Below are positions 36,083 to 54,809 of a stretch of DNA of 64,000 bases, piece after piece. Numbering within the stretch: the first letter of the stretch is position 1; each line of letters begins with the position of its first letter. Location of the stretch: the NCBI RefSeq assembly GCF_900215325.1, contig NZ_OCMS01000002.1:310001-374000 (forward strand). The letters are read 5' to 3'. Under the pieces are notes generated by a model. That model worked only from the letters and a program-made list of their open reading frames with translations. It ran no database searches and was not told the origin of the DNA. The position numbers and the translations under genes were made by a program. Source of the stretch: Fibrobacter sp. UWB16. Lineage in GTDB: Bacteria; Fibrobacterota; Fibrobacteria; Fibrobacterales; Fibrobacteraceae.

Positions 36083-39000
36083 ATGAAAAAAGGAAATCTG
36101 TTTTTGAGAACTGTATTGAGTACATTGGCGGCCGCACTAGGGCTGGCGGTTCCCGCTATGGCACAAGAAAATGTGCCGGAGGTTGAACGCATTGTTGTCA
36201 AATTGGATCCGTTACAATTTTCCGGAGTGACGGACGAGGATCAAGGGCAGAAGCTCTGGAACGACCTCATGAAGTACAAACTATGGGGTACTCAAACCAT
36301 AATTTTCAATAAGCATGATTTTAAAATTGCCGAAACTAGTGGGTACACGGGAACGGCTGTTGGTGATGTTGTCTTCAATGATTATGGGCATACACTTGGT
36401 GGTCCGATTGTTTCGGGCCGTGATCTTGTTTTTGCAAAAGGTGCGGCTACGGAAGATTCTCTAATAGGAGGATCAATATATGCCAGAAAACTTTATTTGC
36501 CAGATAACTATAAAGTCGAAAATTCTCGGTATGATGGGAATATTTGTTTTGAAGACGATATCGTTTTTTCTGCGCCTGACAAAAATGGAGCTGAATGGGA
36601 ATATTATGAGTGGATTAATACTTTAAATCGTTTTATCGAAAATGCTCACAAAGCAATTCTTAATGACGACCGTAGAAAAGAAGGCAAGGTTTATGCTAAC
36701 TGGGCTAAGGATCTTTCTAATCCGTCTGCTGTGAATCTTGATGGTGTCTTTAGTGATGATGAAGGTGCTGTTAAATGTCCTTCGGATGTTCCGAGACCAG
36801 ATGTGGGACTGACCGTACCTGTGCTTGATGAGTCTGGTATTAATTGGGAACCCTCCGTTAGTTTGAGCTCAAGCTTTTATGGCGAAGTCCAGTATATTCA
36901 CGTTCCGCCCATTTCTGAAGATGATATCAAGAACGAACATACTTGGTTCGATAAGTATGTCGAGAATATTGAATTTTTCGGAAATTACGGAAAGAAGCTT
37001 TATATCTTGATGCCGTCCAGTCAGCAGAACGCTGATAAAAAGACGACTGGTCGCTTGACGCGTATCTTTACACAACAAGGTATTAATATTCAAAGTTCTG
37101 CAAATGATACAAAGATTCAGGTGGCTTATGTCGGTAGTGATGCTACGTGGGACTCCGAAAATAAACGATGGAATTTTGACGAAAACGAAATAACCGTAGT
37201 CCATGATACCGCTTATGCTGGTAATCTTTTGTTCTATACGAACGCGGACATCAATTGGCCTGCAATGAATAGTAATAGGGAATCTGATTATCAGGGAACC
37301 TTTATTACTACGGGCGATTTTACAATCAACGATCATTTAAGTGTTGCTGGTCAGCTGATTGCTGGTGGAACTCTTTGGTTTGAATCTGAATTTAATGGGG
37401 AATTCCACTATGTTCCATTCAATACTCCTGAAATTAAGACAAATGTTTTTGCGGGTGATAAGTTCAAGGAAGATGACAATACATGGTATGACATGCAGTT
37501 CTACTTGACGGATACCGCACATACCGAAGTATCTTTCGATTATTGCTTTGCTTTCTTTGATGAAATTGAAGATGCTGATACGAAATTTGCCGCTTATAAA
37601 AGTAAGGAATACGGCAACCTTTCGGGTGAGTTTGCTAAACGTGAAGATTTAGGTGTAAATGATGATAACCATAAAATGCCGTTCTGCAAGGATGGTGAAT
37701 CAAGACATATAGTCATTAGAAAGGGAAAACGTCATCCAGATGTTCCTGAATATTCAGCATGGCTCAAAGTCATTGATGATGATAAGATCGAAGGCGATGA
37801 ATACATGTTATTCAAGATTATGAACTTGAATGGTGCTGCTATCTCGGGCAACAAGTTCGGTGGTGGTCTCGTGGTTAAACTTGTGGATTCCAATAATAAG
37901 CCGCCACACTTTGTTGATTTGGATAAAGTTAATCTTGCTGTTCCTGAAAATGCCACAAAGGCTTTGGCGGGTACGCTTGTTGCCGAAGATGACGAAGGTG
38001 ATGAATATGCATATGAAATAGTGGGTGGCTCTGCTGAAGAATTATTCCAAATTAATTCTAAAGGCGAAGTTTCTATGAAAAATGGTGTTGATCCGTTTGA
38101 TTATGAAGCTTGGAAGGCCGCCGGTACAAAGCTAACCCTTGATATAGAAGTTTGCGATACAAAGGATACGCAACATAGTACATTCCTTTGTGATAGCCGC
38201 ACGTTCACGGTTAGCATTATTGACGTTAACGAAAAGCCATACTTCGACTACGCCGCAGATGCGAAAAAGGAAATCAAGATTGCCGAAAATTCAATGAATG
38301 CTGATGAAGCGGTGAAAACGGCGGATCTTGATACCTATATTGATAAATTGGGTATTGTTGTTAAAAATTCGAAGTTTACGAATAACGAAGTCGTAGTAAT
38401 TGGTGGTGATGTCGATGACTTTGGCGTTTCCAAGGCTGGTGTTATCTACGCAAAGCATAATCTTGATTATGAACTGAAGAGCACGTATAAGATTACCTTG
38501 CGAGTCCGTGATGTGGATACGGAAAATTATCCGGATCTTTATGACGATATGGAATTTACCATTACCGTAACGGATATCGATGACGGTCCGAAGTTTGAAT
38601 TTGCAGCCTACAATGGAACCGTTGATGAAAACTCCGTCGCTGGCACTGTAGTCGATTTAGACCACGCTATCGTGGCAAAATCAACTCTTGAAGATGCTAC
38701 GATTACTTACAAGTTGCTTGATGAAACCAAGTCGTTTGTAATCGACCCGGTTACGGGTGTCATCACGGTGGCTGAAGGTGCTGTCCTCGATTTCGAAACG
38801 AAGGATACTTACGAGATGAAGGTTGTCGCTTCTGATGAATCTGGTGTTGAAGGTCAAATAGTGCAGACCGATACAGCCGATGTTATCATCAAGCTTAACG
38901 ACTTGAAGCATTACCTGAAGGAAACTGTATTCGAAATTGCGGAAGATGCGGCTAAGGAATCTAAAATCAAGCCGTCGCTTGAAACCACTGAACCTGGCAT

Positions 39001-41530
39001 TGTTGATGATGCCAAGTATACCTACTATATCCTCGACGGTTCCAAGGAAGTTTCTTCGAATAAGATCTTTGAACTCGATCCGGAGACTGGTACGTTCTCC
39101 GTTGTAGCCGGTCTGGATTATGAGACGAAGGACTCCTATTCCATCAAGGTCCGTGTGAAGAATGCTATTGGCAATTCTTCTGATACAACAGTGACGATCA
39201 ATATTATCGATGTGAATGAAGCTCCGTCTATCCTTGTGGATACAATCTATGTGAAGGAAAATCATCCTGTCGATGAACCGTTCAGCACTGTCAAGACGGA
39301 TAAGGACGATCCGGATACAAAGAATCCTGATTTCCGCAACAACGTTTATACCAATACTGATGGTAGCAAAATCTTCAAGGTGGATTCGAATGGCGATGTC
39401 ATTCTCCTGAAGCCTCTCGATTACGAAGCTGATTCAGTCTATACGATTGATGTACGCGTAAGCGATAAGGAAGACAATACGCTGACTTCGACCAAGAAGG
39501 TTGTTGTTAAGGTTGTGGATGTCTATGAAAGGTCCGAAGTCGAAATTACACGTGTCGAAGATAGGGATTCTATCTATCTCAAGCCGGATTCCGTCTTTGT
39601 GAACGATTCTGTCGTGGGCATTGAATGGACTCGTGACGGTAAGATCGATTCTAGTGTCGATTCGCTTAAAGAAGGTTGCAATGTCATTATCAAGAAATTC
39701 CATGACAAGACTAAGAATGATCCGGGTGCCGATACGGTTGTCGTTTGCTTCAGCTCTGCCGCTCCGATTGTGACGGTCTCTGCCAATGGTGATGATGTTA
39801 CTGCAGATAACATTTATACAGTCGTTGAAAAGGCGACAAAGAACGATACTGCTGTTTACGTGAATGAAAAGAAGAATGATATCAAGGTGACTGTCAATGA
39901 CACTGCGTCTCATGTTACTAAGTCGTTCACGGTAAAGCTGGAACTGGATACGGTTGCAGTCTCTTCGAAGAATTTCAAGAGTCTCAAGAGTGTAGCGGAC
40001 TCCGAAATTACTCGTAAGAAGAATCCTGATTCTGGAATTACATCTGTTCCTGAAAATGGAACGACCTATAAGAATTCTTATACGGATGAAGTAAACGGCG
40101 TCAAGGTGACTGTTTCTTACTACACCGATAAGAATGGTAAGGATGTCAAACGTTCTGTTATCACTTCTTCTGGCAAGACAAAAGATCTCGCTGTAATCGA
40201 AGTCTCGTACACGACAAAGGTCAATGGCAAGGAAGTTACGATTTCGTACTTCGCCGCTGCATCAACGGGTGAACGTGTCACGCTGAATACTGGCCTTACC
40301 GATAGCGAGTCTGTGCTCTCTGCAGATGGCGAATACGTGACGGCTTCGTACAAAGTGTACTATGACTATGTTGACAAGAACGGCAACACCGTCGAAGTCT
40401 CTTACTATCTGGATGACAAGGGCAATATCGCGAAGAACAACGAAGGAAACATTGGTTACAATGTCGCTTATACTTATGTGAACAAGTATGGCAACTCTTC
40501 GAAGAAGGACGTGTTTATCGTTCTTGACCAGAAGGGACCTGTTGTAAAGATCGTTTCTCCGCGTGAAGATGACGTTCTTACCGCAAACTTTGCTGTGGTC
40601 AAGTGGACTGTCAATGGTGAAGAACAGGATACGCTCCGCGTTCAAGGCCTTGACAATGGCGTGCAGACGATTGTCCGTGTGTTCCGCGACAAGGCCGGCA
40701 ACGAATCCCGCGATTCTGTGCATGTCTTGGTCAAGAAGGCAAAGGACATCAGTATTGATGTTGAAAAGCCTGTAACGAAGGTCGATCGCGACTCTGTCGA
40801 AAAGTACTACAAGGACAGCAAGCCGAGTGATGACCAGACTTATAGCGTGACATTCTTCAACTATGAAAAGGACGCCGAAACCGAAGCCATTGTTGGAATT
40901 AAGGGCAAGGCCAAGAAGGGCTCTGGCGAAGAACCGTATTCTGGCTTGAAGGGCCACCTCGGACCGACACTCAAGGTCGACGCTCGCGTTCCTGTGGTAA
41001 GTGCTGTGGGTGGACTGGCAACGCTGGACGACATCATGAGCAGTGATGGCCTTGTGGCCGTGGAAGGCGTTGATGCCGCTAACGGTAAGAAGATGGCTGT
41101 GGACGAATACGTTGAAAAGCACTGTACCGAAGAGTTCAGAAAAGCTTTGAAGAAGTCCAAGGATTACAGCCACATGAACCTTTACTGGACGACGCTCAAG
41201 GTTAAAGTCTGGGTGTACTCGAATACGGGTGTGTTTACGGACTACTATAGCTTTGACTACGACCTTGATGATCCTGAATATGTGAATGAAGCTGGTCTTT
41301 TGAAGTTCTACTTCGAACTCAAGCCTGATGAAAACGGTGACGTGAGAACTAAAGATGGACGTCTCTATGGCACCGGGGCTTACCTCTTCAAGACCGAAGT
41401 CAGGATGAGTTCTAAGCTTCGCTGCGACCTTCCGCCGATATCCGACGAAGGCAAGAAGAAGAACTCCGTTGTTAAGACGAGCGACGACTTGCTCAAGTCG
41501 TTCGGCTACAGACGTCCCGTTAACAAATAG
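36083..41530 (+). CDS. Giant secreted cadherin-repeat protein, paralogue 1
   Basis: 1815 residues from ATG 36083, chosen because the signal peptide (FLRTVLSTLAAALGLAVPAMA) begins there. Head, about residues 25-600: beta-rich, with TRIFT, then AGNLLFYTNADI, LSVAGQLIAGG and FDYCFAFFDE, shared with the protein at 42.0 kb. Residues 600-1150: about five cadherin-like repeats marked by linkers such as IDVNEKPYF, TDIDDGPKF and IDVNEAPSI, and by LDYE cores, which should bind calcium. Residues 1150-1815: a module shared with the paralogue, opening VEITRVE and containing GHLGPTL, VSAVGGLATLDDI and DGRLYGTGAY, ending FGYRRPVNK. It is probably a surface adhesin. No known sorting domain is recognised. Confidence 0.85.
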   Translation: MKKGNLFLRTVLSTLAAALGLAVPAMAQENVPEVERIVVKLDPLQFSGVTDEDQGQKLWNDLMKYKLWGTQTIIFNKHDFKIAETSGYTGTAVGDVVFNDYGHTLGGPIVSGRDLVFAKGAATEDSLIGGSIYARKLYLPDNYKVENSRYDGNICFEDDIVFSAPDKNGAEWEYYEWINTLNRFIENAHKAILNDDRRKEGKVYANWAKDLSNPSAVNLDGVFSDDEGAVKCPSDVPRPDVGLTVPVLDESGINWEPSVSLSSSFYGEVQYIHVPPISEDDIKNEHTWFDKYVENIEFFGNYGKKLYILMPSSQQNADKKTTGRLTRIFTQQGINIQSSANDTKIQVAYVGSDATWDSENKRWNFDENEITVVHDTAYAGNLLFYTNADINWPAMNSNRESDYQGTFITTGDFTINDHLSVAGQLIAGGTLWFESEFNGEFHYVPFNTPEIKTNVFAGDKFKEDDNTWYDMQFYLTDTAHTEVSFDYCFAFFDEIEDADTKFAAYKSKEYGNLSGEFAKREDLGVNDDNHKMPFCKDGESRHIVIRKGKRHPDVPEYSAWLKVIDDDKIEGDEYMLFKIMNLNGAAISGNKFGGGLVVKLVDSNNKPPHFVDLDKVNLAVPENATKALAGTLVAEDDEGDEYAYEIVGGSAEELFQINSKGEVSMKNGVDPFDYEAWKAAGTKLTLDIEVCDTKDTQHSTFLCDSRTFTVSIIDVNEKPYFDYAADAKKEIKIAENSMNADEAVKTADLDTYIDKLGIVVKNSKFTNNEVVVIGGDVDDFGVSKAGVIYAKHNLDYELKSTYKITLRVRDVDTENYPDLYDDMEFTITVTDIDDGPKFEFAAYNGTVDENSVAGTVVDLDHAIVAKSTLEDATITYKLLDETKSFVIDPVTGVITVAEGAVLDFETKDTYEMKVVASDESGVEGQIVQTDTADVIIKLNDLKHYLKETVFEIAEDAAKESKIKPSLETTEPGIVDDAKYTYYILDGSKEVSSNKIFELDPETGTFSVVAGLDYETKDSYSIKVRVKNAIGNSSDTTVTINIIDVNEAPSILVDTIYVKENHPVDEPFSTVKTDKDDPDTKNPDFRNNVYTNTDGSKIFKVDSNGDVILLKPLDYEADSVYTIDVRVSDKEDNTLTSTKKVVVKVVDVYERSEVEITRVEDRDSIYLKPDSVFVNDSVVGIEWTRDGKIDSSVDSLKEGCNVIIKKFHDKTKNDPGADTVVVCFSSAAPIVTVSANGDDVTADNIYTVVEKATKNDTAVYVNEKKNDIKVTVNDTASHVTKSFTVKLELDTVAVSSKNFKSLKSVADSEITRKKNPDSGITSVPENGTTYKNSYTDEVNGVKVTVSYYTDKNGKDVKRSVITSSGKTKDLAVIEVSYTTKVNGKEVTISYFAAASTGERVTLNTGLTDSESVLSADGEYVTASYKVYYDYVDKNGNTVEVSYYLDDKGNIAKNNEGNIGYNVAYTYVNKYGNSSKKDVFIVLDQKGPVVKIVSPREDDVLTANFAVVKWTVNGEEQDTLRVQGLDNGVQTIVRVFRDKAGNESRDSVHVLVKKAKDISIDVEKPVTKVDRDSVEKYYKDSKPSDDQTYSVTFFNYEKDAETEAIVGIKGKAKKGSGEEPYSGLKGHLGPTLKVDARVPVVSAVGGLATLDDIMSSDGLVAVEGVDAANGKKMAVDEYVEKHCTEEFRKALKKSKDYSHMNLYWTTLKVKVWVYSNTGVFTDYYSFDYDLDDPEYVNEAGLLKFYFELKPDENGDVRTKDGRLYGTGAYLFKTEVRMSSKLRCDLPPISDEGKKKNSVVKTSDDLLKSFGYRRPVNK

Positions 41531-41554
41531 GTGCATCGCCTGTTGATAAATTGT

Positions 41555-41583
41555 AGGGTGAAACTTCGGTTCCGCCCTTTTTT
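41555..41583 (+). terminator. Terminator after the first giant gene
   Basis: AGGGTGAAAC and GTTCCGCCCT pair (one mismatch) around a TTCG tetraloop, followed by T residues. Confidence 0.75.
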
Positions 41584-41676
41584 CTTATCCACGCCTCATG
41601 CTAAGCTCATCGACAACACTGAACGTTGCTTTTTCATCCTGTCGTTCGCATATTCGACATCCTGAATGCCTCGCCT

Positions 41677-41783
41677 CTCGTCATCCTGACGCCACGTTTC
41701 TCGTCATCCTGACGCCATGTTTCTCGTCATCCTGACGCCACGTTTCTCGTCATCCTGACGCCGAAGGCGGAAGGATCCAGTGA
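41677..41783. repeat. 23-bp tandem repeat merging into a REP-like element
   Basis: Three full units of 23 bases (CTCGTCATCCTGACGCCACG then TTT; the second has one change) at 41677, 41700 and 41723. A fourth starts at 41746 and continues into GCCGAAGGCGGAAGGATCC and AGT. The core is the dispersed GTCATCCTGA element. This fills most of the 475-base gap between the two giant genes; the remaining part holds a terminator, the next promoter and a stem-loop. Confidence 0.9.
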
Positions 41784-41908
41784 CCTTCCATAGCTCATAT
41801 AATACGCATGATACAGATTCCGTAAATCAACTCCTGAAAATCGGCGAAAATGATACTTAAATCTTACAATTTTACAAGATTTCACATTTCTTTAGATTGA
41901 GCCGTTAC

Positions 41909-41914
41909 TATATT
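41909..41914 (+). promoter_or_regulatory. Likely -10 box of the second giant gene
   Basis: TATATT in the context GTTACTATATT, identical to the context upstream of the first giant gene. No convincing -35 is seen. Confidence 0.45.
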
Positions 41915-41954
41915 TCATTAGAAAAGTGTTTGGATGATTTGGGAAGGAAACTGT

Positions 41955-41980
41955 GACAAATTTCTGGAGTGAAATTTGTC
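41955..41980. promoter_or_regulatory. Perfect 10-bp inverted repeat in the leader of the second giant gene
   Basis: GACAAATTTC and GAAATTTGTC are perfect complements around a six-base loop, 25 bases before the ATG and just ahead of AAAGGAG. It could be an mRNA stabiliser, a translation-control hairpin or an operator. Confidence 0.6.
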
Positions 41981-42005
41981 GTAGCAAAAGGAGCATAAGG
42001 TTATT

Positions 42006-45000
42006 ATGTGGTTTGGCAAATTAAGTCTTAAAGCTGCAGCTTTAGTTCTGTTTGGCGCTGTTTCGTCAATGGCTGCAGAAACAGCTGTTGCCCCAATGAC
42101 ATTTGGGGACACAAAAACGGATGTCAACAACTGGAACTACCTGACTCAGTATAAGCTTTGGGGTACCAATGGTATCGAACTGGGCAATAGACCTGGTTTC
42201 TATAATCCAAATTACTTTAACAAAGAAACTGGAGTCATGACTTATCCAGCTAACTTTCCTTTGTTAGACTCCCTTGGTGCTGTGGGTACTAATAAAACCC
42301 TTTCCTCAGTTGGTGATGGCGGTTGGCTTGATGGCCCTGTTGTTGTCGGTGGAAACATTACTAATAAAGGACAGAACTTTGAAATTTTGACAGGCCCGAT
42401 TCGTACAAACGGCTCTAATGCTGCTATTGTTCGTGATGGCGTTCTAAGCTGTCGTTTAGACAATACGACTGGAAATTGTAGTCCAGCTAAGGTTCCTGAT
42501 TATCGTTCTGCAATCAAGGTGCCGACCTTGACGGGTAGTATTACATGGCGTTCCGCCATTACCGTGCCCAATAGTAAAAGGTACACAATCGATGTCAATT
42601 CGATGTGCTCGGGAACAGGAACGTGTGATATCTACTATGAAGCCATTAATTTTGAAAATGATGGCCGTCTTGTTGTTTCCATGCCAGATGATGGACGCAC
42701 GACTCGTATTTTTACGAAAAGCTTGAACATGAATACTCATCCCCAGATTGTTGTTCGTTATCCGAGCAAGGGTGATCTTAAGGCTAATGAGTACGAAGGT
42801 AATTTGCTGATTTATGTTAATGGCGATATTACTTTTGTGAATACGGATAATGCGGACATGATGGGTACCTTGGTCAGTAATGGTACCATTGAAATGCGCT
42901 GCAATATGACGGTTGCTGGACAGTTTATTGCAAATAAAATCATTATTGGTAATGAAATCGAAGCAAAAAAGTTTACTTTTAAGCCGTTTAACAAAGTTCC
43001 GGAACTTGTTGTTGGTAACAATTCAAAGAAGATTACGGAAAATGACAAATGGTATGATCTCGACATTGTGTTGAATGGCGATGAACCGGCTACAGAAAAA
43101 GTGACTTTTGATTATTGCTTTGAATTCCAGTCTGCTAGCGGTGTCCAGAACACTTATGCTGGCTATCAGGATGTTGGTGCTGCAGACGCCTCGCACAAGT
43201 TCCCGATATGCAATAAGGGTGAAGTCGGAAAGGGCGAAATCCCGGTTGGTGAAACAAAGGCTAAAGGTATTGGAATCAAGCCCTTACTTGATGGTCTCGT
43301 AGAAGAAGATGAAGCTCTTTGGTTCCAGCTCAAAAATATCCAGGGTGCCAAAACATCAAGTGATTATGAAGATGGCAAGGGTTACAAAATCTTTATCGTA
43401 AGTAAGGATGTTGCTCCTTCTGTTTCTAGTCAACTTGTTATTAAAGTCAATGAAGATAGCAAGTACACGTTCTCGAAGAATGACTCTAAAAATGAATTTA
43501 AATTCCAGCATGCAACTCAGTCCTTTGCTGCTGTTATTATTACAAGTCTCCCGACGGCAGGTACTTTGACTTTGGACGGTAAGGCTGTTACAAGAGATCA
43601 GAAAATTGCTGTAGGTGATCTTGGCAAACTTGAGTATACGCCAAAAGCTGATGAATTTGGCAATAAGTATGCCACGTTTGGTTATAAAGTTGTTGGCGAT
43701 GGTACTGGCACTAATACCTCTGGACCTGATCCGTACACGGCTACTATTAATGTTGTTCCTGTTAACGATGCCCCGACAGTTTCGACTAATAACAGCAATG
43801 AAGTTGTTTTTACGGTAATGGAAAAGGGCGATCTTGCTAGTGGCAAGATTACCGTCGGCGATGTTAACAATGAAAGAAACGTTGATACGTATACCTACAA
43901 TTTGGTGAACGTTTCTGGCTCTGATTATGATGCCTTTAAAAAGGCTTTCACCATTGTTAAGGATGGTGACCAGAATGCAACGCTCAAGGTCAATTCTGGT
44001 GTTACGTTGAATTATGCGACAAAGAAGAAATATGTCGTTTATGCTAAAATTTCAGATAACGCTGCAACGGAAACGGAAACCGTTACAGGTGGTGGCACAA
44101 AGGAATCTAAGCAGTTCATAATTGTAGTCAATATCAAGAACGAAAATGATGCTCCGACGATTTCTGCTCAGACCTTTACGAAACCAGAAAAGAAGTCTGA
44201 TGGAAGTGATTGGCCGAATGGCGAAAGTGTCGGTAAAGTGACCACCGCTAGTGACCCTGATGGGGATCCTTTGACTTACACAGCCCCAACCAATGTGCCG
44301 TTTAAGTTCAAGGATGGAACGAACGAACTTGTTATTACGGATGGTAGTCAGCTTGATTATGAAACAAAGCCGACTTGGACTTTCAAGGTGACTGTCACGG
44401 ATGGTGAATTTTCTGCATCCGCTAATATCACTGTGAACTTGACCGATGTCAACGAACCGCCTCCGCCGCCAATAGTTGATAAGAACTATTATATTGACGA
44501 AAATTCGGACAAGGGTACCACTTTGGGTACATTTAAGGTTACCGATGCCGATAAGATTTCTGGCTCTTATGAAACGCTGACGTATGAGATTTCTGGTGCG
44601 TTGACTGGTGCTGCCAATACGAATAAGACTTTGACTAATAAGTCTTTGAAAGATTTGTTTACCCTTACTCAAAAGAGTGTCAATAGCTCCACAGGCGAAA
44701 GAACTGTCGCTATTGTGGTAAATAATAAGGCTTTGCTTGATTACGAAGAACTCTATAAAACGAGTACCGGTAATGCAACTTATGTTGCTACCATTAAAGT
44801 CACGGATACGAAGGGCCATTCTGTTTCTAAGACAACAAATATTACCATTAGAGACGTCAATGAATCGTTGACAGCTACGGGTGGTACTTTCTACCTGCAG
44901 GAACATTCTCCGGGTGCTTCTTATGTGTGTGCAACTGGGTATGATACTGACGGTTCTTGCAAAAATGATAAGTATGGTCAGGTTGTGGGTAACGATAAGG

Positions 45001-48000
45001 ATAAATACAATCCGGCCTTCAGAAAGTTTACCTATAAGATGTCTTCTGCAAATGCCAATAATACGAAAAATGCAAAGGACGCTAAAAAGTTTACTGTTGA
45101 CAGTCAGGGATTTATCAAGACAGCCAATGATGCTGAATTTGATTACGAAGAAGGTCAGAAATCATATGAATTCTATGTCACGATTTCTGATGGAACCTTC
45201 TCCGATGATGCTAAGGTGACTGTTGTAATCGAAGACGTTGAAGAACCTACAATCAACTTGATTGCTGAAGGCGAAGATGGCATTAACGAAAATGATGCGA
45301 GCGCTTCTGTTCCGTTCTCCGCTGATAAGATTACAGATCCTGTGATGAAACAACAGTTTAATGATATTGGTGACATTCAATCCTATCAGCTTGCTGATGG
45401 TACCAGTGATGATATCAAGGGAATTTTCTTTGTTGATTTTGATGATGGAACGATTTCCATTGATGATGTGACAAAGCTCAATTACGAAGCTTTGAGCTAT
45501 GAAAAGGATAAAAATAAATTCTTGGTGAAACTGAAGGTTACGGGATCCAAGGGTACACTCGATATTACCAGAACAATTGTTGTGATGGATGTCAATGAAA
45601 AGCCTGTTTCAAAAAATCAGACATTTACGGTTCCTGAAACTCTTGAAAGCTTAGGCAAGGTGGGTTCTCTTTGGGCTACTGACCCGGACTCCTGCTCTGT
45701 AACAAAGCCTTGCAAAAACGGAACACATCCGTCTGGATTCAATAAGTTGAGTTATTCTATTGTTGATGACGAAGACCTTCCGTTCGATATCAATCCTAAT
45801 ACGGGCGTAATCACTCTCAAGAATGGAGCAAAGCTTCGCTATAAAGAAAAGAAAAAATATCAGTTTGAAGTCAAGATTTCTGACCGTTCCTTGGATAAGA
45901 ACAATCCGCCTTTGACAACGTATGCTACGGTGACTGTCAATGTCACGGATGAAAACGAACCTTCTGAATTCAGAGTTCTGTCTAGTCTTTATGAAGTCAA
46001 TGAAATGGTTCCGTTAAAAACTCAGCTCGACGATAAAATCGTGGTCTTTGATGATGACGATGCCGATGTTGATGCCTTGACGATTACTATAGAAGATAAT
46101 GCTACTGCAGCAAGTCTCTTTGAAGTTGTCCAGGTGGGTAAAACGAAGGATAACGAAAGTACATTTGCTATCCAGGTCAAGAAGGACATCGACTATGAAA
46201 AGCTGTATGATGAAGTCGAAAAGAATGCAGACTTTGAAGTCACTTTGACCATAAAAGATAGCAGAGGTAAAAATCCTGTTAGCAAGCAGACTGTGATTCG
46301 CGTTAATGACGTGAACGAGGAACCTGCATTTACAGAAGATTCTTACGCATTTGAAATTAGCGAAAGTACTACAAAGCCGACTGCGATTGGTGTAGCCGAA
46401 GCTAAAGATCCGGATATTTACAATCCGAAGTTTGGAACGAAGTATTTCTCACTTGAAGGTGATGATGCCGCTCCGTTTGATGTTGATGTAAGCACTGGTG
46501 AAATCTCTATTATTAAGACGTCTGAACTTGATCATGAAACAAAGCCGGTCTACAAGTTTACTGTCATTGTTACTGATAAGGAGTATACTGCTTCTGTTCC
46601 GGTAACAGTCAATATTTTGGATGCCCCTGAAGGTCCTGTATTCCCTGATCCTCCTCCAGCAATGGATGTAGACGAAAACTCCAAGAAGGGTACGAAGGTC
46701 GGTGAAATCGTTGCTAGCGATGACGACTGCAAGAACAAGCGTCCTTGCAAGACTCCGACGTATAAGCTTATTGAAAGTGAAATTGCTCCTGATGATTACA
46801 CTGCATTTGTCATTGATAATAACGGTGTCATCACGGTGGCTGCAGATAATTCCTTGAACTACGAAAAGCAGAGTGAATATCTTGTTCGTGTTGTTGCTAC
46901 AGATGGCGCCAATAAGGACTTGACCGATACAGCTGAATTGACCATTTTGATCAATGACGTGAACGATGCTCCGACATATGAACAGAAGGAATATGTCTTT
47001 GAAATTCACGAATCTGCTAAAAAAGGTGAGTTTGTTGGCTCTGTTGTTGCCGATGATGAAGACGCCTGGACCAAGCTTTCTTATGCACTTTCTGATTATG
47101 TTGATAAATCGGGAGATAAGGCTTCCTTTACGATTGACGGCTCTGGCAAGATTACCCTTACGGCTGGTTCCTTGAATTATGAAAAGAAGAAGCTATACCA
47201 GGTTTGGGCTACGGCTACAGATAACGGTGAAGCCTATGGTAAAAAGATTGGTAGAACTGATTTTAAGAATTACGAAGCATCGACTCTCGTGACCATCAAC
47301 CTCATCAATGATCCGGATCCTCCTGTGATTCACGATGATGACGAAGAAGGCTATGATGTCGAAGAAAATACGATCGACAAGAATTCGCCGACCGGTAAGG
47401 AAATTGCATGCTACGATGTCGAGGATGAAGATGAAGGCCAGGTGGCAACTCTCGTTCCTTACGTGACTGACGTTGGTGAAACAGATGCTGATCGTCTTTT
47501 CGATGCTAAGCTCAAGAAGGATGGCTCCAAGTATAAGCTTTGCCTCATCGTAAAGAATGGTGATAGACTGAATTACGAAACAATCGCTCATACTCATAAG
47601 GTTAAGGTCTTTGTCATGGACGGAGATCAGTTGACGGACTATGTTGCAAAGACCATCAACATTGTTGATGTGAACGAAATGCCGGTTATTTCGAGCACGC
47701 CTTCGCTTTCGTTCTACGAAAACAAGGGTGAAAATTATGTTATTGGCAAGCTCCTTTCTGATGACATTGACACATCTAAGGCATTCACAAATAACGTGTT
47801 TAAAGCTATTGGCGGCGATACGGATCTGTTTACGATTACCGAAGATGGCAAGATCAAGGCAAAACGCGACTTTGACTATGAAACTGAAAAGCGTCATACG
47901 TTCGAATTGGAAATTTCCCTGTCCGATAAGGATTCCAAGAAGTATCCGAAGTTGACTACTTCGACAACGGTTTCTATTACGCTTAAGGATATGCCGGAAT

Positions 48001-50723
48001 TCCCGGAAATCACGAGTACGGAATTTGATGTCGATGAAAATTCTGAAGGTGGAACGCCTATCGGAGTTCTTGAAGCTGTTGACCCGGATGGCGATACTGA
48101 ATTCCTGTTCGCTCTTGCTGAAGATAATCCGTATGTGTCTGTGTATTCGACCGGTGAAATCAAGGTTCTTCCGGATGCCAAGATTGACTATGAAAAGACT
48201 CAGAAGTTTACGATCTTGGTGAGTGTTACGGATATGGATGGCATGTCTTCTGAAAAGGAAATCGTCATCAAAGTCAATGACTTGAATGAAGCTCCGAAGA
48301 TTAAGCCGCAGGAATTCACGTTCCCGGAAGATTCCAAGCCTGGAACCAAGAAGGGCCCGGTCAAGGCTGACGATCCGGATACGAAGAATCCGAAGTTCAA
48401 TGACTTGAAGTTCTATCCTGTTGAAGAAAATGATAAGTTCGAAATCAAGCCGAATGGTGATATTGTCTTGAAGAGCGAACTCGATTATGAAAAAGAAAAG
48501 TCCTATGTTGTCAAGGTCTATGTCACTGACGGTGAATTCAATGACACTACGGATGTGACGATTAAGGTTGGCAACGTTGTTGAAAAAGCCGAAGTCGAGA
48601 TTACTCGTGTTGAAACTGGCAAGTCTGTTTATATCAAGCCGACTCCTAAGGATACAATCTTTACGAATAAGGATCTCGTCTCGGTGGAATGGAAGCAGGA
48701 AGGCAAGACGAAGTCTAGTATCGATACTCTGAAGAGTGAAGGCTGCCACGAAATTGTTAAGACATATAAGGACCCGAGTAAGGATCTCGCTGGTTCTGAT
48801 ACGGTTGTCGTGTGCTATAGCACAGCTGCCCCGATTGTCGATATCGGTGCCAAGAAGACGACGGTCGAAGCTGACAATATCTATACGATTGTCGAAAAGG
48901 TCGATAAGAAGGACTCTACAATTTATGTGAACAGCAAGTCTAAGGACGTCCAGGTTTCTGTGCAGGATTCTGCATCTGGAATCAAGAACTCCAAGAGCAC
49001 TGTTGAGGTTAAGCTGGATACGGTTGCCATATCGGATAAGACTATAAAGAATATGGTGGATGTATCCAAGTCCGAAATTGCACTTGAAAAGAATCCGAAG
49101 ACTGATGTTTATGAAACCCCGATTGGCGATAAGACCAAGATCTCTTACGACAAGGTTGTCGATGGCGATACGGTAACGGTTTCTTACCTCGTTGACGAAG
49201 ATGGCGATATTGTCAAGACTACTGTTTATGACGAAAATGGTAAGAAGAAGACCATTGAAGTCATTGAAGTGTCTACCGTTATCGAAGTTAAGGGCAAGGA
49301 AGTTACTGTTTCTTACAAGGCCGATGCCGAAACAGGCAATATCTTGTACGGTGACTCCGAAGGCAACTTGATGTTTGATACTCCGAAGAGCTCTTCTAGC
49401 AAGGATTCTAAGGACAATAGCGCTGTTGACTTGAAAACTGGTGTCGGTGCATTTACCGTGACTTACGATGCTCAGGGTGTCGAAGGCAATAAGACCACTG
49501 TCTCTTACGTCGTTGACGAAAAGGGCAAGATTGTTGCTAACGAAGAAGGTGACAGAGGCTATCTCGTGACCTACACCTATACCAACAAGTATGGCAACTC
49601 TGCTGAAAAGTCCGTGTTCATGGTGCTCGACAGGATTGCTCCGAAGGTTATTATCAGATCTCCGAAGAAGGATGCTGTGGTTTACGCAAACTACGTCGAT
49701 GTTGACTGGTGCATTGCCTACGATGGCGACGAAGACAATTGCGTTACTCAGGATACCTTGAATTTCCAGAGCCTTAACAAGGGTATGAATACCATTAAGC
49801 GTATTTATCGCGATAAGGCCGGTAATGAAACCGTTACTGAAGTTAGCGTCTTGATGAAGAAGGCTAAGGATGTCGATATCGAACTCGAAAAGCCGATGGT
49901 TCTTGTCTCGATTGACTCGGTGAACAAGTACTATGACATTAACCCGCCTGAAAAGGATCAGACATTCGCTGTTAGCATCTTGAATCCGAGTACCCAGAAG
50001 GAAATGGAAGTTATTAAGGGCTTTAGCGATGATAACAAGAAGGGCTCGGGTGATGAACCGTATCCTGGTTACGATGGACATCTCGGTCCGACGATCGATA
50101 TCAAGATGAAGTTGCCGCTTGTCAGCGCTGTTGGTGGTCTCTCCACTTTGGATGATATCATCATCAACGGTAATATGGTGCCTTTGGATGGTGTCGATGC
50201 AGACAATAGTCCTAACAAGGTCTCTGTAGAAAAGTATGTTGAAAAGTACTGCTCTACGGAATTCCAGACGGAATTGGAAAAGAACCACAATGACTATAGC
50301 AAGGCTAACCTCTACTCCACAAAGGCTCACGTCACGCTGTGGTTCTACACGACTGGCGGTCAGTTCGTTGACAAGTACAGCTTCGATTACAAGATCAATG
50401 ACCCTGATTATGTGGACAAGTCTGGTCTCGTGAAGTTCTTCTTCGAAATGAAGCCGGATATGAATGGCGAATTGAGGGATGCTGATGGACGTCTCTACGG
50501 TACGGGTCCGTACATCGTAAAGACTGAAGTTGAACTTCGTTCCAAGCTTCGCTGCGTAGTTCCGCCGGTGGATGGAAATGCCAAGATTGGCGATGTGCTG
50601 AAGTCTAGCGACGAAATGATGAAGCGCTTCGGTTACAGACGCCCGGTGGTTCGCGGAAACGAAAAGTCCTCTTCTTCTAAGAAGGATTCTAAAAAAGGAT
50701 CTTCTTCAAAGAAGAAAAAGTAA
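42006..50723 (+). CDS. Giant secreted cadherin-repeat protein, paralogue 2
   Basis: 2905 residues with a signal peptide (LKAAALVLFGAVSSMA). Head (to about 480): LWGTNGIELGN, TRIFTKSLNMN, EGNLLIYVNGDI, MTVAGQFIANK and VTFDYCFEFQ, parallel to the neighbour at 36.1 kb; the last part resembles a Calx-beta strand pattern. Residues 480-2195: about 14 cadherin-like repeats, each ending in linkers such as VPVNDAPTV, LTDVNEPPP, VNDVNEEPA, INDVNDAPT and VNDLNEAPK. Residues 2195-2880: the same terminal module as paralogue 1, from VEITRVE to FGYRRPV, with an inserted SSSSKDSKD linker. The tail is Ser/Lys-rich (SSSSKKDSKKGSSSKKKK). It is probably a long calcium-stiffened surface adhesin. Confidence 0.86.
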   Translation: MWFGKLSLKAAALVLFGAVSSMAAETAVAPMTFGDTKTDVNNWNYLTQYKLWGTNGIELGNRPGFYNPNYFNKETGVMTYPANFPLLDSLGAVGTNKTLSSVGDGGWLDGPVVVGGNITNKGQNFEILTGPIRTNGSNAAIVRDGVLSCRLDNTTGNCSPAKVPDYRSAIKVPTLTGSITWRSAITVPNSKRYTIDVNSMCSGTGTCDIYYEAINFENDGRLVVSMPDDGRTTRIFTKSLNMNTHPQIVVRYPSKGDLKANEYEGNLLIYVNGDITFVNTDNADMMGTLVSNGTIEMRCNMTVAGQFIANKIIIGNEIEAKKFTFKPFNKVPELVVGNNSKKITENDKWYDLDIVLNGDEPATEKVTFDYCFEFQSASGVQNTYAGYQDVGAADASHKFPICNKGEVGKGEIPVGETKAKGIGIKPLLDGLVEEDEALWFQLKNIQGAKTSSDYEDGKGYKIFIVSKDVAPSVSSQLVIKVNEDSKYTFSKNDSKNEFKFQHATQSFAAVIITSLPTAGTLTLDGKAVTRDQKIAVGDLGKLEYTPKADEFGNKYATFGYKVVGDGTGTNTSGPDPYTATINVVPVNDAPTVSTNNSNEVVFTVMEKGDLASGKITVGDVNNERNVDTYTYNLVNVSGSDYDAFKKAFTIVKDGDQNATLKVNSGVTLNYATKKKYVVYAKISDNAATETETVTGGGTKESKQFIIVVNIKNENDAPTISAQTFTKPEKKSDGSDWPNGESVGKVTTASDPDGDPLTYTAPTNVPFKFKDGTNELVITDGSQLDYETKPTWTFKVTVTDGEFSASANITVNLTDVNEPPPPPIVDKNYYIDENSDKGTTLGTFKVTDADKISGSYETLTYEISGALTGAANTNKTLTNKSLKDLFTLTQKSVNSSTGERTVAIVVNNKALLDYEELYKTSTGNATYVATIKVTDTKGHSVSKTTNITIRDVNESLTATGGTFYLQEHSPGASYVCATGYDTDGSCKNDKYGQVVGNDKDKYNPAFRKFTYKMSSANANNTKNAKDAKKFTVDSQGFIKTANDAEFDYEEGQKSYEFYVTISDGTFSDDAKVTVVIEDVEEPTINLIAEGEDGINENDASASVPFSADKITDPVMKQQFNDIGDIQSYQLADGTSDDIKGIFFVDFDDGTISIDDVTKLNYEALSYEKDKNKFLVKLKVTGSKGTLDITRTIVVMDVNEKPVSKNQTFTVPETLESLGKVGSLWATDPDSCSVTKPCKNGTHPSGFNKLSYSIVDDEDLPFDINPNTGVITLKNGAKLRYKEKKKYQFEVKISDRSLDKNNPPLTTYATVTVNVTDENEPSEFRVLSSLYEVNEMVPLKTQLDDKIVVFDDDDADVDALTITIEDNATAASLFEVVQVGKTKDNESTFAIQVKKDIDYEKLYDEVEKNADFEVTLTIKDSRGKNPVSKQTVIRVNDVNEEPAFTEDSYAFEISESTTKPTAIGVAEAKDPDIYNPKFGTKYFSLEGDDAAPFDVDVSTGEISIIKTSELDHETKPVYKFTVIVTDKEYTASVPVTVNILDAPEGPVFPDPPPAMDVDENSKKGTKVGEIVASDDDCKNKRPCKTPTYKLIESEIAPDDYTAFVIDNNGVITVAADNSLNYEKQSEYLVRVVATDGANKDLTDTAELTILINDVNDAPTYEQKEYVFEIHESAKKGEFVGSVVADDEDAWTKLSYALSDYVDKSGDKASFTIDGSGKITLTAGSLNYEKKKLYQVWATATDNGEAYGKKIGRTDFKNYEASTLVTINLINDPDPPVIHDDDEEGYDVEENTIDKNSPTGKEIACYDVEDEDEGQVATLVPYVTDVGETDADRLFDAKLKKDGSKYKLCLIVKNGDRLNYETIAHTHKVKVFVMDGDQLTDYVAKTINIVDVNEMPVISSTPSLSFYENKGENYVIGKLLSDDIDTSKAFTNNVFKAIGGDTDLFTITEDGKIKAKRDFDYETEKRHTFELEISLSDKDSKKYPKLTTSTTVSITLKDMPEFPEITSTEFDVDENSEGGTPIGVLEAVDPDGDTEFLFALAEDNPYVSVYSTGEIKVLPDAKIDYEKTQKFTILVSVTDMDGMSSEKEIVIKVNDLNEAPKIKPQEFTFPEDSKPGTKKGPVKADDPDTKNPKFNDLKFYPVEENDKFEIKPNGDIVLKSELDYEKEKSYVVKVYVTDGEFNDTTDVTIKVGNVVEKAEVEITRVETGKSVYIKPTPKDTIFTNKDLVSVEWKQEGKTKSSIDTLKSEGCHEIVKTYKDPSKDLAGSDTVVVCYSTAAPIVDIGAKKTTVEADNIYTIVEKVDKKDSTIYVNSKSKDVQVSVQDSASGIKNSKSTVEVKLDTVAISDKTIKNMVDVSKSEIALEKNPKTDVYETPIGDKTKISYDKVVDGDTVTVSYLVDEDGDIVKTTVYDENGKKKTIEVIEVSTVIEVKGKEVTVSYKADAETGNILYGDSEGNLMFDTPKSSSSKDSKDNSAVDLKTGVGAFTVTYDAQGVEGNKTTVSYVVDEKGKIVANEEGDRGYLVTYTYTNKYGNSAEKSVFMVLDRIAPKVIIRSPKKDAVVYANYVDVDWCIAYDGDEDNCVTQDTLNFQSLNKGMNTIKRIYRDKAGNETVTEVSVLMKKAKDVDIELEKPMVLVSIDSVNKYYDINPPEKDQTFAVSILNPSTQKEMEVIKGFSDDNKKGSGDEPYPGYDGHLGPTIDIKMKLPLVSAVGGLSTLDDIIINGNMVPLDGVDADNSPNKVSVEKYVEKYCSTEFQTELEKNHNDYSKANLYSTKAHVTLWFYTTGGQFVDKYSFDYKINDPDYVDKSGLVKFFFEMKPDMNGELRDADGRLYGTGPYIVKTEVELRSKLRCVVPPVDGNAKIGDVLKSSDEMMKRFGYRRPVVRGNEKSSSSKKDSKKGSSSKKKK

Positions 50724-50796: not shown

Positions 50797-51123
50797 ATGG
50801 GTATCGAAGAACGTTCTACTTTAGTATTTGCTAGTGGCGTCGGCCGGATTAAAGAAGAAAAGCCCAAGGCGAGCCGACCGCAGGGCGATGGAATCGTACG
50901 AATAACCCTGAAACGACTTGGGGGCGGTAAGATGGCGAGTGTTGTTTCTGGCATCCCCGTAGACGAAGATGAACTTAAGGATTTGGCCCGTGCGTTGAAG
51001 CAAAAGTGCGGTGTTGGCGGTTCCGTCAAGGATTTCAATATTGAAATCCAGGGCGATAAGCGAAATGTGTTAAAGGCTGAACTAGAAAAAAAAGGCTATA
51101 CCGTCAAGCTTGCTGGCGGGTAA
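50797..51123 (+). CDS. SUI1/eIF1-family protein (YciH type)
   Basis: 108 residues. The C-terminal 75 residues match the SUI1 fold: IVRITLKRLGGGKMASVVSG, then DLARALKQKCGVGGSVKD and IEIQGDKRNVLKAELEKKGY. YciH in E. coli can influence start-codon selection, and the bacterial role is otherwise unclear. The short N-terminus is basic and less conserved. It stands alone between terminator-bounded units, with ATG after AGAGG. Confidence 0.92.
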   Translation: MGIEERSTLVFASGVGRIKEEKPKASRPQGDGIVRITLKRLGGGKMASVVSGIPVDEDELKDLARALKQKCGVGGSVKDFNIEIQGDKRNVLKAELEKKGYTVKLAGG

Positions 51124-51213: not shown

Positions 51214-52530
51214 ATGTTTAAGCATCTGTCTTTGTCTTGTTTGCTACTTGCAATGGTTGTTCCGGTGAGTGTTTCTGCTGCAAAGGTTGGGACCACTCGA
51301 ACTGTTATACCGGTTGCAGAAAAGAGTAAAGGTAGCTGTGATGACGATGCCAAGTGGAAGTCGGCTAGTGGCAAAATTGATAGCAAAGATTGCTTTAGAA
51401 CGAGTAATGAGGGCTCCATTGAATTGCAGTTGAATGGTGACAAGAGCATTCTCACGATTGAGGAAAATTCCACTGTCCGTATCGATACCCTTGTGGAGCA
51501 AGATGAAGATGGCTTTTTCAAGATTAAAACCAATATCCAAAAGGGATATATGGGTTTTAATGTCGAAAAGAAAAACAGGGTACATTTCTCTACTGGAACG
51601 GCAGCCGCTTCGATTCGTGGTACGAATGGAGCTATTGGCGGTAACCAGACGACTATGTTTGCCGGTCTTAAGAATGGTTTTTTGTGGGTGAGTGACACGC
51701 TTACAGGGGATTCTCTTGTTATCAGCGATGGTGAAACTGTAATTGGCAAAGGGCAGTTTGCTGTATTGAAACTCAAGTCCTCGGGAGATATTAATTTTGC
51801 AAAAATCCTGAATGAACTTATTGCGGATTCGACGTTGTCTTTGGAAGATCTGAAGGCCGCCGCTATTTCTGCCGATTCTGCTTATCAGGAATTGCTTGCG
51901 GCAAAGGCTTCTGCTCAGACTCCTGCTACAGAGGTCGAGGACGCTGCGTTGAAGGTGCCGCAAATAAAGTATTCCTCTTATGATTCTTTGCGCTGTGTAG
52001 CAAACGTTACGGTATCAGACGTTCAGAAAGGGACTGAAGTCCGTGTGTCTGCCGTGATGGACGGAACTCCGATTTCTGAGGTCAGCGTAAAGCGCAACAT
52101 GCCGAAGCGCCTTGCACTTCGTAGCGGAGTTCATGAATATGAATTTGTTGTAGAAAACGATGCCGGCCGCAATAGCGTGAAAAAGACTTTGGGCTGCTAT
52201 CCTATGAAGCCTTTCTCTGTCAAGGTTTTTGGCAAAAAGTATGAGTTTTTGCCGATCCCGCCAGCACCTCCGGGAGCAGAAGACGTCATTATGCAGACTT
52301 TGCATTTCCAGATTCGAGTGCCGGAATACGATCCGAGTTTCTTGAATAAAGTTACTGTCCGTCAGGATGGCAAGGTTATTTTGCAGGAACGTTTATCGCA
52401 AATCCAGAACCTGGATTACCAGATTCCGGTGGAATTGAAGCGTAATCACAAGAACCGCTTTGATATTGAAGTCATCCATAAGAGTGGTTTTGCTGTCAAG
52501 ACGACCAAGGTCTATGAGGTGGGCAAATGA
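51214..52530 (+). CDS. Exported FecR-domain protein
   Basis: 438 residues with a signal peptide (CLLLAMVVPVSVSA). Residues 45-200 form a FecR domain: GSIELQLNGDKSILTIEENS, VEKKNRVHFSTGTAAASIRG and NGFLWVSDTLTGDSLVISDG. Residues 250-438 look like two or three beta-sandwich domains. Unlike classic FecR, there is no N-terminal cytoplasmic anti-sigma region and no sigma factor nearby, so this belongs to the structural periplasmic FecR group. The stop overlaps the start of the beta-barrel gene (ATGA), pointing to a partnership in the envelope. Confidence 0.85.
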   Translation: MFKHLSLSCLLLAMVVPVSVSAAKVGTTRTVIPVAEKSKGSCDDDAKWKSASGKIDSKDCFRTSNEGSIELQLNGDKSILTIEENSTVRIDTLVEQDEDGFFKIKTNIQKGYMGFNVEKKNRVHFSTGTAAASIRGTNGAIGGNQTTMFAGLKNGFLWVSDTLTGDSLVISDGETVIGKGQFAVLKLKSSGDINFAKILNELIADSTLSLEDLKAAAISADSAYQELLAAKASAQTPATEVEDAALKVPQIKYSSYDSLRCVANVTVSDVQKGTEVRVSAVMDGTPISEVSVKRNMPKRLALRSGVHEYEFVVENDAGRNSVKKTLGCYPMKPFSVKVFGKKYEFLPIPPAPPGAEDVIMQTLHFQIRVPEYDPSFLNKVTVRQDGKVILQERLSQIQNLDYQIPVELKRNHKNRFDIEVIHKSGFAVKTTKVYEVGK

Positions 52531-54809
52531 TTTTTAGGGGACTTGCTCTAGCTACTGTTGCTGTAATTCCTGCTTTGGCTCAGGATTCGTCGTGGACTGT
52601 AAATGGTTCTGTCGGTGCTGAGTTTGGTTTTCATTCCGTCGTGACGGAAAAGAATGATTCCAATGAAGTTTTTGTGAATGGCAAGGATTCTATTTTGCCA
52701 GGCAAGAAGTACAAAAACTATTTCCAGGTGCCCGGTGTTTTTGGAGCCTGGAATGCGTTTGTGCAGATGGAATCCCCGATGGGGCAGAAGATTGAATTTA
52801 CGATGGATGTATCCCATGACAAGTGGAATTACTTTGATCCAAAGTTTGTTCAAATTTCGTATGAAGATCGCTTGCAAAAGTTGATTTTGGGCGACTTTTA
52901 TGTTTCCAAAGGTGATTTGTATTTAGCTGGCGTTGATGTCTTTGGCGCTAGCTATGATTTTAATTTGAATTTGAACAAGTCCGTTGATCCGTTACTTGTC
53001 TTTAGCGTTTTTGGTGGCGAAAATCGCGCTCCAAAATTGCCTGGAGAAAAAGACCCGGACCAGTACAACAGGTACATTGGTCTTGATGAAGTCGAAGCTC
53101 AAAAGATGCTGATTGGCGGTAAGGTTCTTTGGAATGCTTCCGAAAATTTTGATGCTACTGTAGGTTTTATCGGCAGTAAGGATTATCTGGAAGAGCCGTA
53201 TTTTCGAGATGGAATTTCGAGAAACGTCAATCTCTCGAATCCCATGTTCTCATCGAAGACGTTCTTTGGCGAAGTGAATGGCAAGGTCCTTGGTGGTCGT
53301 GGCACGTATAATGTGCAGCTCGGCTTTGGTGGTGCAGATACGGTGAATGTTGTTGCTCACCGTGCTGTGAATTCCGTTTTTGAGGAGGCTGGACTTGACG
53401 TGTCTCGCTTTGCGCAGTTGCGCCGCCTGATGAACAATTCTTCACTTGTAAACTATATGAGTCGCGATGAACTGGAACTCATCTTTGGCGACAATATGGA
53501 TATGAGTGTAGATGATATGCGAAGTGAACTCAAGCGCGTGTTGAAAGATGCTCAGAGCGCCCTTAAAAAATATCGCGATGAAAAGAGTGATGATCCGACG
53601 GAATGGTCTGCGCAGAATCTTGCGTTGTCCGGCTCTTACAACTGGAAGCATAAATCGACGAATGTTGATGCTTATTTCCGCTTTGTCGGTCGTGATTATT
53701 ACAGCGCTGGTTCTCCGGACCTTTTGCAGAATTCTCGTCAGTTTGGCGCTAAAATAGAACGGGATATTCAAGATTTCTGGAAGTTGAATTTTGGGTATGA
53801 ATTGAATATCGAAAATGCATCGGGTGAAGACGATACATATAACGTATTTGGTTTTGCCGAAGGTTCTGAACTTGGGCTTTTGCCGGGCGCCGATGAGGAC
53901 TGGTTGAAAAAGCATGAACAGGATGCTTCGAGAACGCTTTATATTCACGACTTTAATTTGAAGAATACGTTTAAGGTACGTGATTCTATCGAGGTTGTTG
54001 CCCGCTATGCTCTCAACTACCGCACTCGCAGTACACCTCAGAGATTGCATGGCAATTATTTTGCATCCTCGGGAATTTATTCTGATTCCTGGTTTGATGT
54101 GCAAAAAGGAAAGCCGACGGTTGATGTGATATCCGATGACGATACGATCAAGATTGACTCTGCGCGATGGGCTAAGTATGCAGCCCTGCAAGACAAACCG
54201 TATCTCGCAACTCAGTTCGAAGAACGTTTGCTGAAGCACACCATTGAACTTGCGGCTACGTTTAGATTCCCCAAGAATGTACTGAAGGTCGGAGGTGTAT
54301 GGACGTACCGTACGGATTTGTCCAAGTTCAATCAGGATGACCTGTTGGATGGTTTTGATTTCTCTGATGAAACTTATGGGATCCTTGGATATTATTTCCA
54401 CGGTGGCGATTACTTTGATGCCCGCTATCCGATTTCCTTGACGACAACGCTTGACCGTGTGCGCAATACGGTTTCTGTGACGCCGAGATTCCGAATTTAT
54501 AATCGCAATGAAATGAGCGAATTTGAATGGAATCTCATGGACAATGCAACGATTAAGTTGAAGCCAGGTTTCCTTGACTTGATGTTGCATGGTAGCATCC
54601 GTCAGAACTTCATGAGTCGTGAAGAAAATGGTCAGGATGTGGACGAAATGGAAATGGATTTGGATCTCTCGGCGGGAGCAAAATTCCAGTTGACCGAAAA
54701 GCTTAGCACGGAATGCACGCTTGGTGCTTTCTTTAACTATCGTCCGGATAATGCTTCTGAAGATTACAGAGACATTTACGGCAGTGTTTCCGTCAATTAC
54801 GATTTCTAG
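52527..54809 (+). CDS. Outer-membrane beta-barrel protein
   Basis: 760 residues with a signal peptide ([12 protein letters not shown]). The mature protein is rich in alternating amphipathic strands ending in aromatic residues ([38 protein letters not shown]), and its last residues are SVSVNYDF, a terminal phenylalanine as needed for BamA-dependent insertion. A helical, charged insert lies near residues 290-360. No plug or TonB box is recognised. Co-translation with the FecR-domain protein suggests that the two form a complex. It may be an anchor, porin or export channel; none is proven. Confidence 0.8.

Follow-up and report, generated by a model that had tools for sequence, protein, structure and literature searches.

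How would two giant cadherin-repeat proteins, encoded side by side in the genome of Fibrobacter sp. UWB16, be brought to the cell surface and held there, and what is the C-terminal module that both of them share? Fibrobacter succinogenes is a leading rumen cellulose degrader that works without cellulosomes, and how its fibro-slime adhesins and large cellulases are delivered to the surface is unsettled. The two genes, here called cadA and cadB, lie in a stretch of 64,000 nucleotides (hereafter the window), as adjacent plus-strand open reading frames (ORFs), both intact, with the following features:

36083 to 41530, plus strand: cadA, an ORF for a predicted giant cadherin-repeat surface protein (PF00028) of 1815 aa, 201.7 kDa, pI 4.7
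36083 to 36163, plus strand: Sec-type signal peptide of cadA, read by eye as MKKGNLFLRTVLSTLAAALGLAVPAMA, cut before Q
36164 to 37450 (approximate limits), plus strand: head of cadA, without Pfam family; in related genomes apparently a cassette exchanged among strains
37889 to 39532 (approximate limits), plus strand: cadherin rod of cadA, with four PF00028 stretches and DVNExP/LDYE motifs
39533 to 41521, plus strand: C-terminal module of cadA, Ig-like rod end and terminal domain, starting SEVEITRVE
40766 to 41521, plus strand: terminal domain of cadA, whose core, common to fibro-slime and GH9 proteins, is 41180-41518
42006 to 50723, plus strand: cadB, an ORF for a predicted giant cadherin-repeat surface protein (PF00028) of 2905 aa, 319.1 kDa, pI 4.7
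42006 to 42074, plus strand: Sec-type signal peptide of cadB, read by eye as MWFGKLSLKAAALVLFGAVSSMA, cut before A
42075 to 43010 (approximate limits), plus strand: head of cadB, without Pfam family
after the head, to about 43460, plus strand: Calx-beta-like stretch of cadB, by eye
43461 to 48587 (approximate limits), plus strand: cadherin rod of cadB, with eight PF00028 stretches, one PF17803 and 11 LDYE-type motifs
48588 to 50648, plus strand: C-terminal module of cadB, 687 aa, starting AEVEITRVE (AlphaFold2 model m2aa0ec820d63)
49890 to 50648, plus strand: terminal domain of cadB, 253 aa, with its core at 50310-50645; the predicted fold is T9SS-CTD/FlgD-like Ig and holds a conserved insert (AlphaFold2 model m9aafa4d2de41)
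50649 to 50720, plus strand: basic tail of cadB, beyond the conserved FGYRRPV end (last 60 residues of cadB, pI 10.4)

The start codon of cadA is an ATG, with an alternative TTG 15 bases upstream. Cadherin repeats are found in both proteins well above the Pfam gathering score of PF00028 (cadA, 121.6 bits; cadB, 276.2 bits; cut-off, 28.8). The heads gave no match in a Pfam search; across 37 heads, conserved positions are W43, K50, G91, G94, G110, G130, C149, C158, P173, Y263, and G265. The original prediction gave the two proteins a common plan in which a head is followed by a cadherin rod and then by a C-terminal module of about 670 residues, and this was confirmed. BLASTP aligned the two modules from end to end (about 670-690 residues, up to FGYRRPV) at 50% identity (E = 3.7e-184 for the module alone) and found the segments GHLGPT, VSAVGGL-TLDDI, and DGRLYGTG conserved between them. 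That the modules are more alike than the rest of the proteins also held across Fibrobacter loci, where tails averaged 61% and heads 36% identity in 37 within-locus comparisons.

The module is composed of several units, some 430 residues of Ig-like rod end and then a C-terminal domain (CTD) made of the last 110-250 residues. Structure prediction, one of the checks proposed, was made with AlphaFold2: the 687-residue module of cadB (36 sequences) was modeled as a string of Ig-like beta domains (mean pLDDT 82.1), and the last 253 residues, folded alone, reached a pLDDT of 88.5 and a pTM of 0.84. The predicted terminal domain begins with strands at positions 24-32, 37-45, and 68-74; after these come an insert containing short helices and five further strands that finish in the FGYRRP segment. 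The insert is large (roughly 90 residues) and conserved (GHLGPT ... TLDDI ... EYVxxYC), and the ending GTGxY ... G(F/Y/V)(R/K)R is conserved across the proteins that carry the domain.

By searching Pfam and NCBIfam with the whole proteins, the module, and the terminal domain, we found that only cadherin models match the cadherins; the terminal domain had no Pfam match up to an E-value of 10. Nor was a recognizable autotransporter or RTX C-terminus found, full Pfam scans of both cadherins giving only cadherin models (to E 0.1). A profile search of PDB sequences returned nothing (best E-values of 1.1 and 0.16).

The terminal domain is nevertheless not private to the pair. A first search of the genome with the module gave two extra weak matches, both at the ends of large ORFs. 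Profile A1, built with these two matches included, picked up further loci outside its building set at E-values from 1.6e-17 to 8e-5, all at the extreme C-termini of large ORFs; a second profile led to 13 loci. In its own genome, the domain thereby stands at the extreme C-terminus of 13 large, secreted-looking proteins, namely the two cadherins, eight fibro-slime proteins carrying TIGR02148 domains, and three GH9 proteins with lengths of 1957, 2143, and 2178 residues; on the non-cadherin proteins, recurrence was demonstrated for the last ~110 residues of the module only. The 11 non-cadherin members are acidic as whole proteins (pI 4.7-5.3) and basic over their last 110 residues (pI 9.1-10.0). 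The last 110 residues of the cadherins are less basic than those of the other members (pI 6.2 and 8.6), with pI values of 9.9 and 10.4 over the last 60. A Sec-like signal was recognized by eye in 10 of the 11 non-cadherin members; for the 2143-residue GH9 protein, no clear signal peptide was found by eye from the first methionine. Both cadherins have the layout of type IX secretion system (T9SS) cargo, with an N-terminal Sec signal and a conserved C-terminal end followed by a short tail only. The three GH9 genes are consecutive at one locus (L236, G000:C2:403500-423400), ~30 kb past the window, and all of them end in the terminal domain.

Conservation beyond the pair, for which a profile search had been proposed as a check, was found in all or nearly all genomes of the genus. 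The last 253 residues matched in 80 of 80 Fibrobacter genomes, mostly at full length; the matches usually lay on one contig, in a tandem pair or array, while in a few genomes the match covered only a weaker shared terminal part. In the phylum Fibrobacterota, 125 of 168 genomes matched the terminal-domain profile at E <= 0.001, the matches outside the family being mostly weak, and the relatives found in named genomes all belong to Fibrobacter or to Fibrobacteraceae/Fibrobacterales assemblies.

Which known class of C-terminal domains comes closest? The curated models of T9SS signals did not recognize the 13 proteins. The type-A CTD model TIGR04183 (cut-off 23 bits) had 79 matches in the genome at E <= 1, at least 43 type-A CTDs in the genome being above the cut-off, and none was at the C-terminus of any of the 13. 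Type-B CTDs (TIGR04131) end giant adhesins in Bacteroidota; this class was rejected here, the best score in the genome being 19.8 bits, at another site, for a cut-off of 35 bits. FlgD_ig (PF13860, cut-off 27 bits) did not match the cadherins and every member tested scored below its gathering score, the best PF13860 match being one fibro-slime member (E = 0.025, 15 bits). Weak HMM matches of individual members had best E-values of 0.0086 for FlgD and 0.045 for the PorU C-terminus.

Folds and profiles were also compared. With the whole module, the top Foldseek match was PorU (E = 4.8e-5); Foldseek found nothing significant with the isolated terminal domain alone. VIA-align placed residues 1064-1158 of PorU first for the isolated domain (Z = 6.8, rmsd 2.9, 93 residues; Z below 8), and its 15 best matches also include FlgD (3c12, Z = 5.3) and the end of PorZ (696-776, Z = 5.2, 21% identity), all these Z values being below 8, a range that unrelated Ig folds reach too. 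When the terminal-domain family was aligned by hhalign with the FlgD/PorU-like tails of the same genome, a probability of 79% was obtained; the score of 20.1 was equaled by none of 100 column-shuffled controls (1.4 +/- 1.3). Because these tails were chosen with PF13860, this result tests kinship to that superfamily and not T9SS function. Against the type-A CTDs of the genome the likeness was weak, with a probability of 4.9% and a score of 7.4 that 2 of 100 shuffles matched. The profile comparison supports a kinship of the terminal domain with the FlgD and PorU CTDs, and the predicted fold is closest to the PorU CTD.

The genome also encodes SprA (1362 and 259 bits), two matches to the PorV family above cut-off, and one C25 peptidase as a PorU candidate (L242:1770-6251), which has a FlgD-like, Ig-like C-terminal tail. 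This set is what is expected of a working T9SS; it is necessary and not discriminating. As SprA is found in 164 of the 168 genomes of the phylum, its co-occurrence with the terminal domain fails as a discriminating test.

Taken with the predicted fold, these data lead us to regard the terminal domain as probably a divergent T9SS-type CTD that exports and anchors proteins in contact with cellulose. T9SS dependence, surface anchoring, cleavage or retention of the CTD, and the ligands of the heads are what we infer in the following scheme. CadA and CadB would be rod-shaped surface adhesins, each with a head at its N-terminus, a rod of calcium-type cadherin repeats, and an anchor at its C-terminus. 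Sec export would bring them into the periplasm, where the terminal domain (the last 110-250 residues, ending FGYRRP) would act as a T9SS C-terminal signal recognized by the SprA/PorV translocon; it would carry the protein across the outer membrane and leave it attached at the surface, the CTD being either cleaved off, as it is from type-A cargo, or retained, as PorU and PorZ retain theirs. The cadherin rod would keep the head at a distance from the cell, and the heads may be variable binding tips recombining between strains. A divergent CTD class common to the cadherins, the fibro-slime proteins, and the giant GH9 cellulases would imply that one signal marks large cellulose-contact proteins. 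The broader proposition, that in Fibrobacterota a third class of T9SS cargo signal marks fibro-slime adhesins, giant GH9 cellulases, and giant cadherins, with recombining head cassettes as a polymorphic tip on a constant anchor, is in our view evenly poised. One CTD shared by these three groups would allow all of them to be tested by the same prediction, and it supplies a profile with which to find further members.

The same domain might instead be an Ig-like anchor that docks on an outer-membrane partner, the proteins being exported by another route such as type II secretion. The lack of any match between the T9SS CTD HMMs and the terminal domain, together with the large conserved insert that classical CTDs do not have, speaks for such an anchor, as do the proposal of type II secretion for the genus (PMC3079729; PMC4668043) and the presence, in the clade of UWB16, of a FecR-domain protein and a 760-residue barrel-like protein after cadB. 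Conservation of these two neighbors does not extend to other Fibrobacter clades, however, and the extreme C-terminal position on unrelated secreted proteins, the first rank of the PorU CTD among the folds, and the presence of a T9SS fit export better, so that we hold a pure anchor to be unlikely. Ig-like stalk domains, for their part, are common and typically give middling Z scores like those obtained here, and the terminal domain could be a mere last stalk domain kept for folding or stability, with no part in sorting. Yet a mere stalk domain should not be found at the very end of every one of the 13 proteins, with their cellulase, PA14/fibro-slime, and cadherin architectures, and the conserved GTGxY ... 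G(F/Y/V)(R/K)R ending also counts against it, which makes this explanation distinctly improbable. With a divergent T9SS-type CTD as the preferred reading, the original idea of an undescribed anchoring, export, or maturation module survives in part: the domain belongs to no curated family, is conserved across the genus, and is C-terminal on 13 secreted-looking proteins, but most probably it is related, at some divergence, to a known class. A module without any tie to type IX C-termini is not supported: no type-A or type-B model matches it, but comparison by fold and by profile leads in both cases to the family of the PorU CTD and the FlgD Ig domain, and the T9SS genes are present.

Several known systems invite comparison. 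The CTDs of PorU and PorZ from Porphyromonas gingivalis (PDB 6za2 and 5m11) are C-terminal Ig-like sandwiches, as the terminal domain is predicted to be, and tolerate C-terminal extensions (PMC11285876), of which the basic tail of cadB may be a counterpart. CTD classes are known to differ in a species-specific way (PMC11285876). The CTDs of PorU and PorZ belong to components of the sortase, whereas the terminal domain is found on giant adhesins and cellulases, has a ~90-residue insert and an FGYRRP-type ending, and has no sequence match above a curated cut-off. With the type-A CTDs (TIGR04183; named BTD or FPm-1 in F. succinogenes enzymes), it shares the C-terminal position, secreted cargo, the same genome, and, in most members, a basic character; it differs from them in its larger size and weak profile likeness, and none of the 13 loci matches TIGR04183. 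FlgD_ig (PF13860) has profile likeness to the terminal domain but belongs to the context of the flagellar hook cap. In F. succinogenes, type II or III secretion was proposed for cellulases and adhesins (PMC3079729; PMC4668043), and a T9SS only for enzymes with BTD/FPm-1, the BTD being seen as a surface-attachment signal of cellulases (PMC6851124). Two proteins of strain S85, FSU_2931 and FSU_2932, were annotated as cadherin domain proteins and detected in envelope fractions by proteomics, with predicted signal cleavage at 27-28 and 23-24, respectively, and a mass of 317.9 kDa for FSU_2932 (PMC4619616). Given their adjacent locus numbers and their matching cleavage sites and mass, they are probably the orthologs of cadA and cadB. 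Their publication consists of annotation and proteome detection only, the C-terminal module, the shared CTD, and head exchange being undescribed there; we found no description of the shared CTD or of head exchange in the open-access literature, where both appear to be new.

How did the pair arise? In the original prediction, the pair came from a duplication after which the rod grew. If the C-terminal likeness had its sole source in a tandem duplication, recent and specific to the lineage, this is indeed what the tree of the last ~265 residues would suggest on its own, because the cadA and cadB tails of the clade of UWB16 are sister groups (supports of 100/98, and 100/96 in a second tree) and, within a locus, tails are more alike than heads. 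The wider comparison tells against it. Across 59 named loci, the upstream gene is the shorter one (~1450-2030 aa) and the downstream gene is commonly longer, with three or more tandem copies in some, and a histidine phosphatase gene is the upstream neighbor of the pair across clades; other clades thus have the pair beside the same gene and in the same order, shorter gene first. The tails of these other clades likewise group by lineage, while heads group more by position (6-8 label changes for heads against 10-11 for tails, on the same 68 proteins; long branches leave parts of the head tree unsure). We consider a recent duplication alone rather unlikely; an old pair with recombination or conversion fits better. 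One duplication with rod growth is too simple a history for tails that cluster by lineage and for heads whose clustering follows position more and which pass from strain to strain. Some horse-gut Fibrobacter genomes (L040/L041 and L161/L211) have three or four tandem cadherin genes and not two.

The conflict between the head and tail trees is explained by pairwise comparisons, in which heads and tails evolve independently. Between genomes G045 and G042, tails are 99% and 98% identical in both genes and heads 40%; between G040 and G004, the values are 96-97% for tails and 41-51% for heads. The upstream genes of G042 and G076 present the reverse case (head 92%, tail 71%), and the head of cadA shares 90% identity with the G072 head, against only 25-70% in the body and 25-60% in parts of the rod. 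Identity profiles step sharply, for example from ~30% up to residue 600 to 83-100% thereafter. In the DNA of G045 and G042, the upstream flank and signal peptide are 94% identical, no similarity is detectable over the head, and 86-91% identity resumes near codon 610 in gene 1 and near codon 500 in gene 2, which puts the breakpoints right behind the signal peptide and around codon 500-610. Head cassettes replaced by recombination between strains would give this pattern. A chimeric assembly of metagenome-assembled genomes is an unlikely source, because several independent pairs of genomes show the exchange, both genes are affected, and low-contig genomes are among the cases. Such exchange suggests selection on the tips by substrates, phages, or predators, and the exchanged heads offer naturally occurring alleles that could be used in binding assays.

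The surroundings of the pair have some features of their own. Between cadA and cadB, at 41653-41785, lies a tandem array of a 23-base unit, CTCGTCATCCTGACGCCACGTTT, in several near-identical copies. Directly 3' of cadB, a small ORF of 108 aa (50797-51123), which we take to be SUI1/eIF1-like, is 93% identical in a relative. It is followed, at 51214-54809, by a gene for a FecR-domain protein (PF04773) that overlaps the start of one for a 760-aa protein without Pfam family, which reads as an outer-membrane barrel. In genome G044, the SUI1-like, FecR, and barrel genes are missing, and the AP_endonuc_2 gene (54812-55639 in the window) comes directly after cadB. The barrel-like neighbor (52527-54809) was considered as a dedicated outer-membrane partner and rejected, being missing from the syntenic place in another clade. 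Finally, an open frame of 1045 aa runs antisense to cadB at 47193-50330, and long antisense frames occur in relatives too; the frame is probably a by-product of codon usage.
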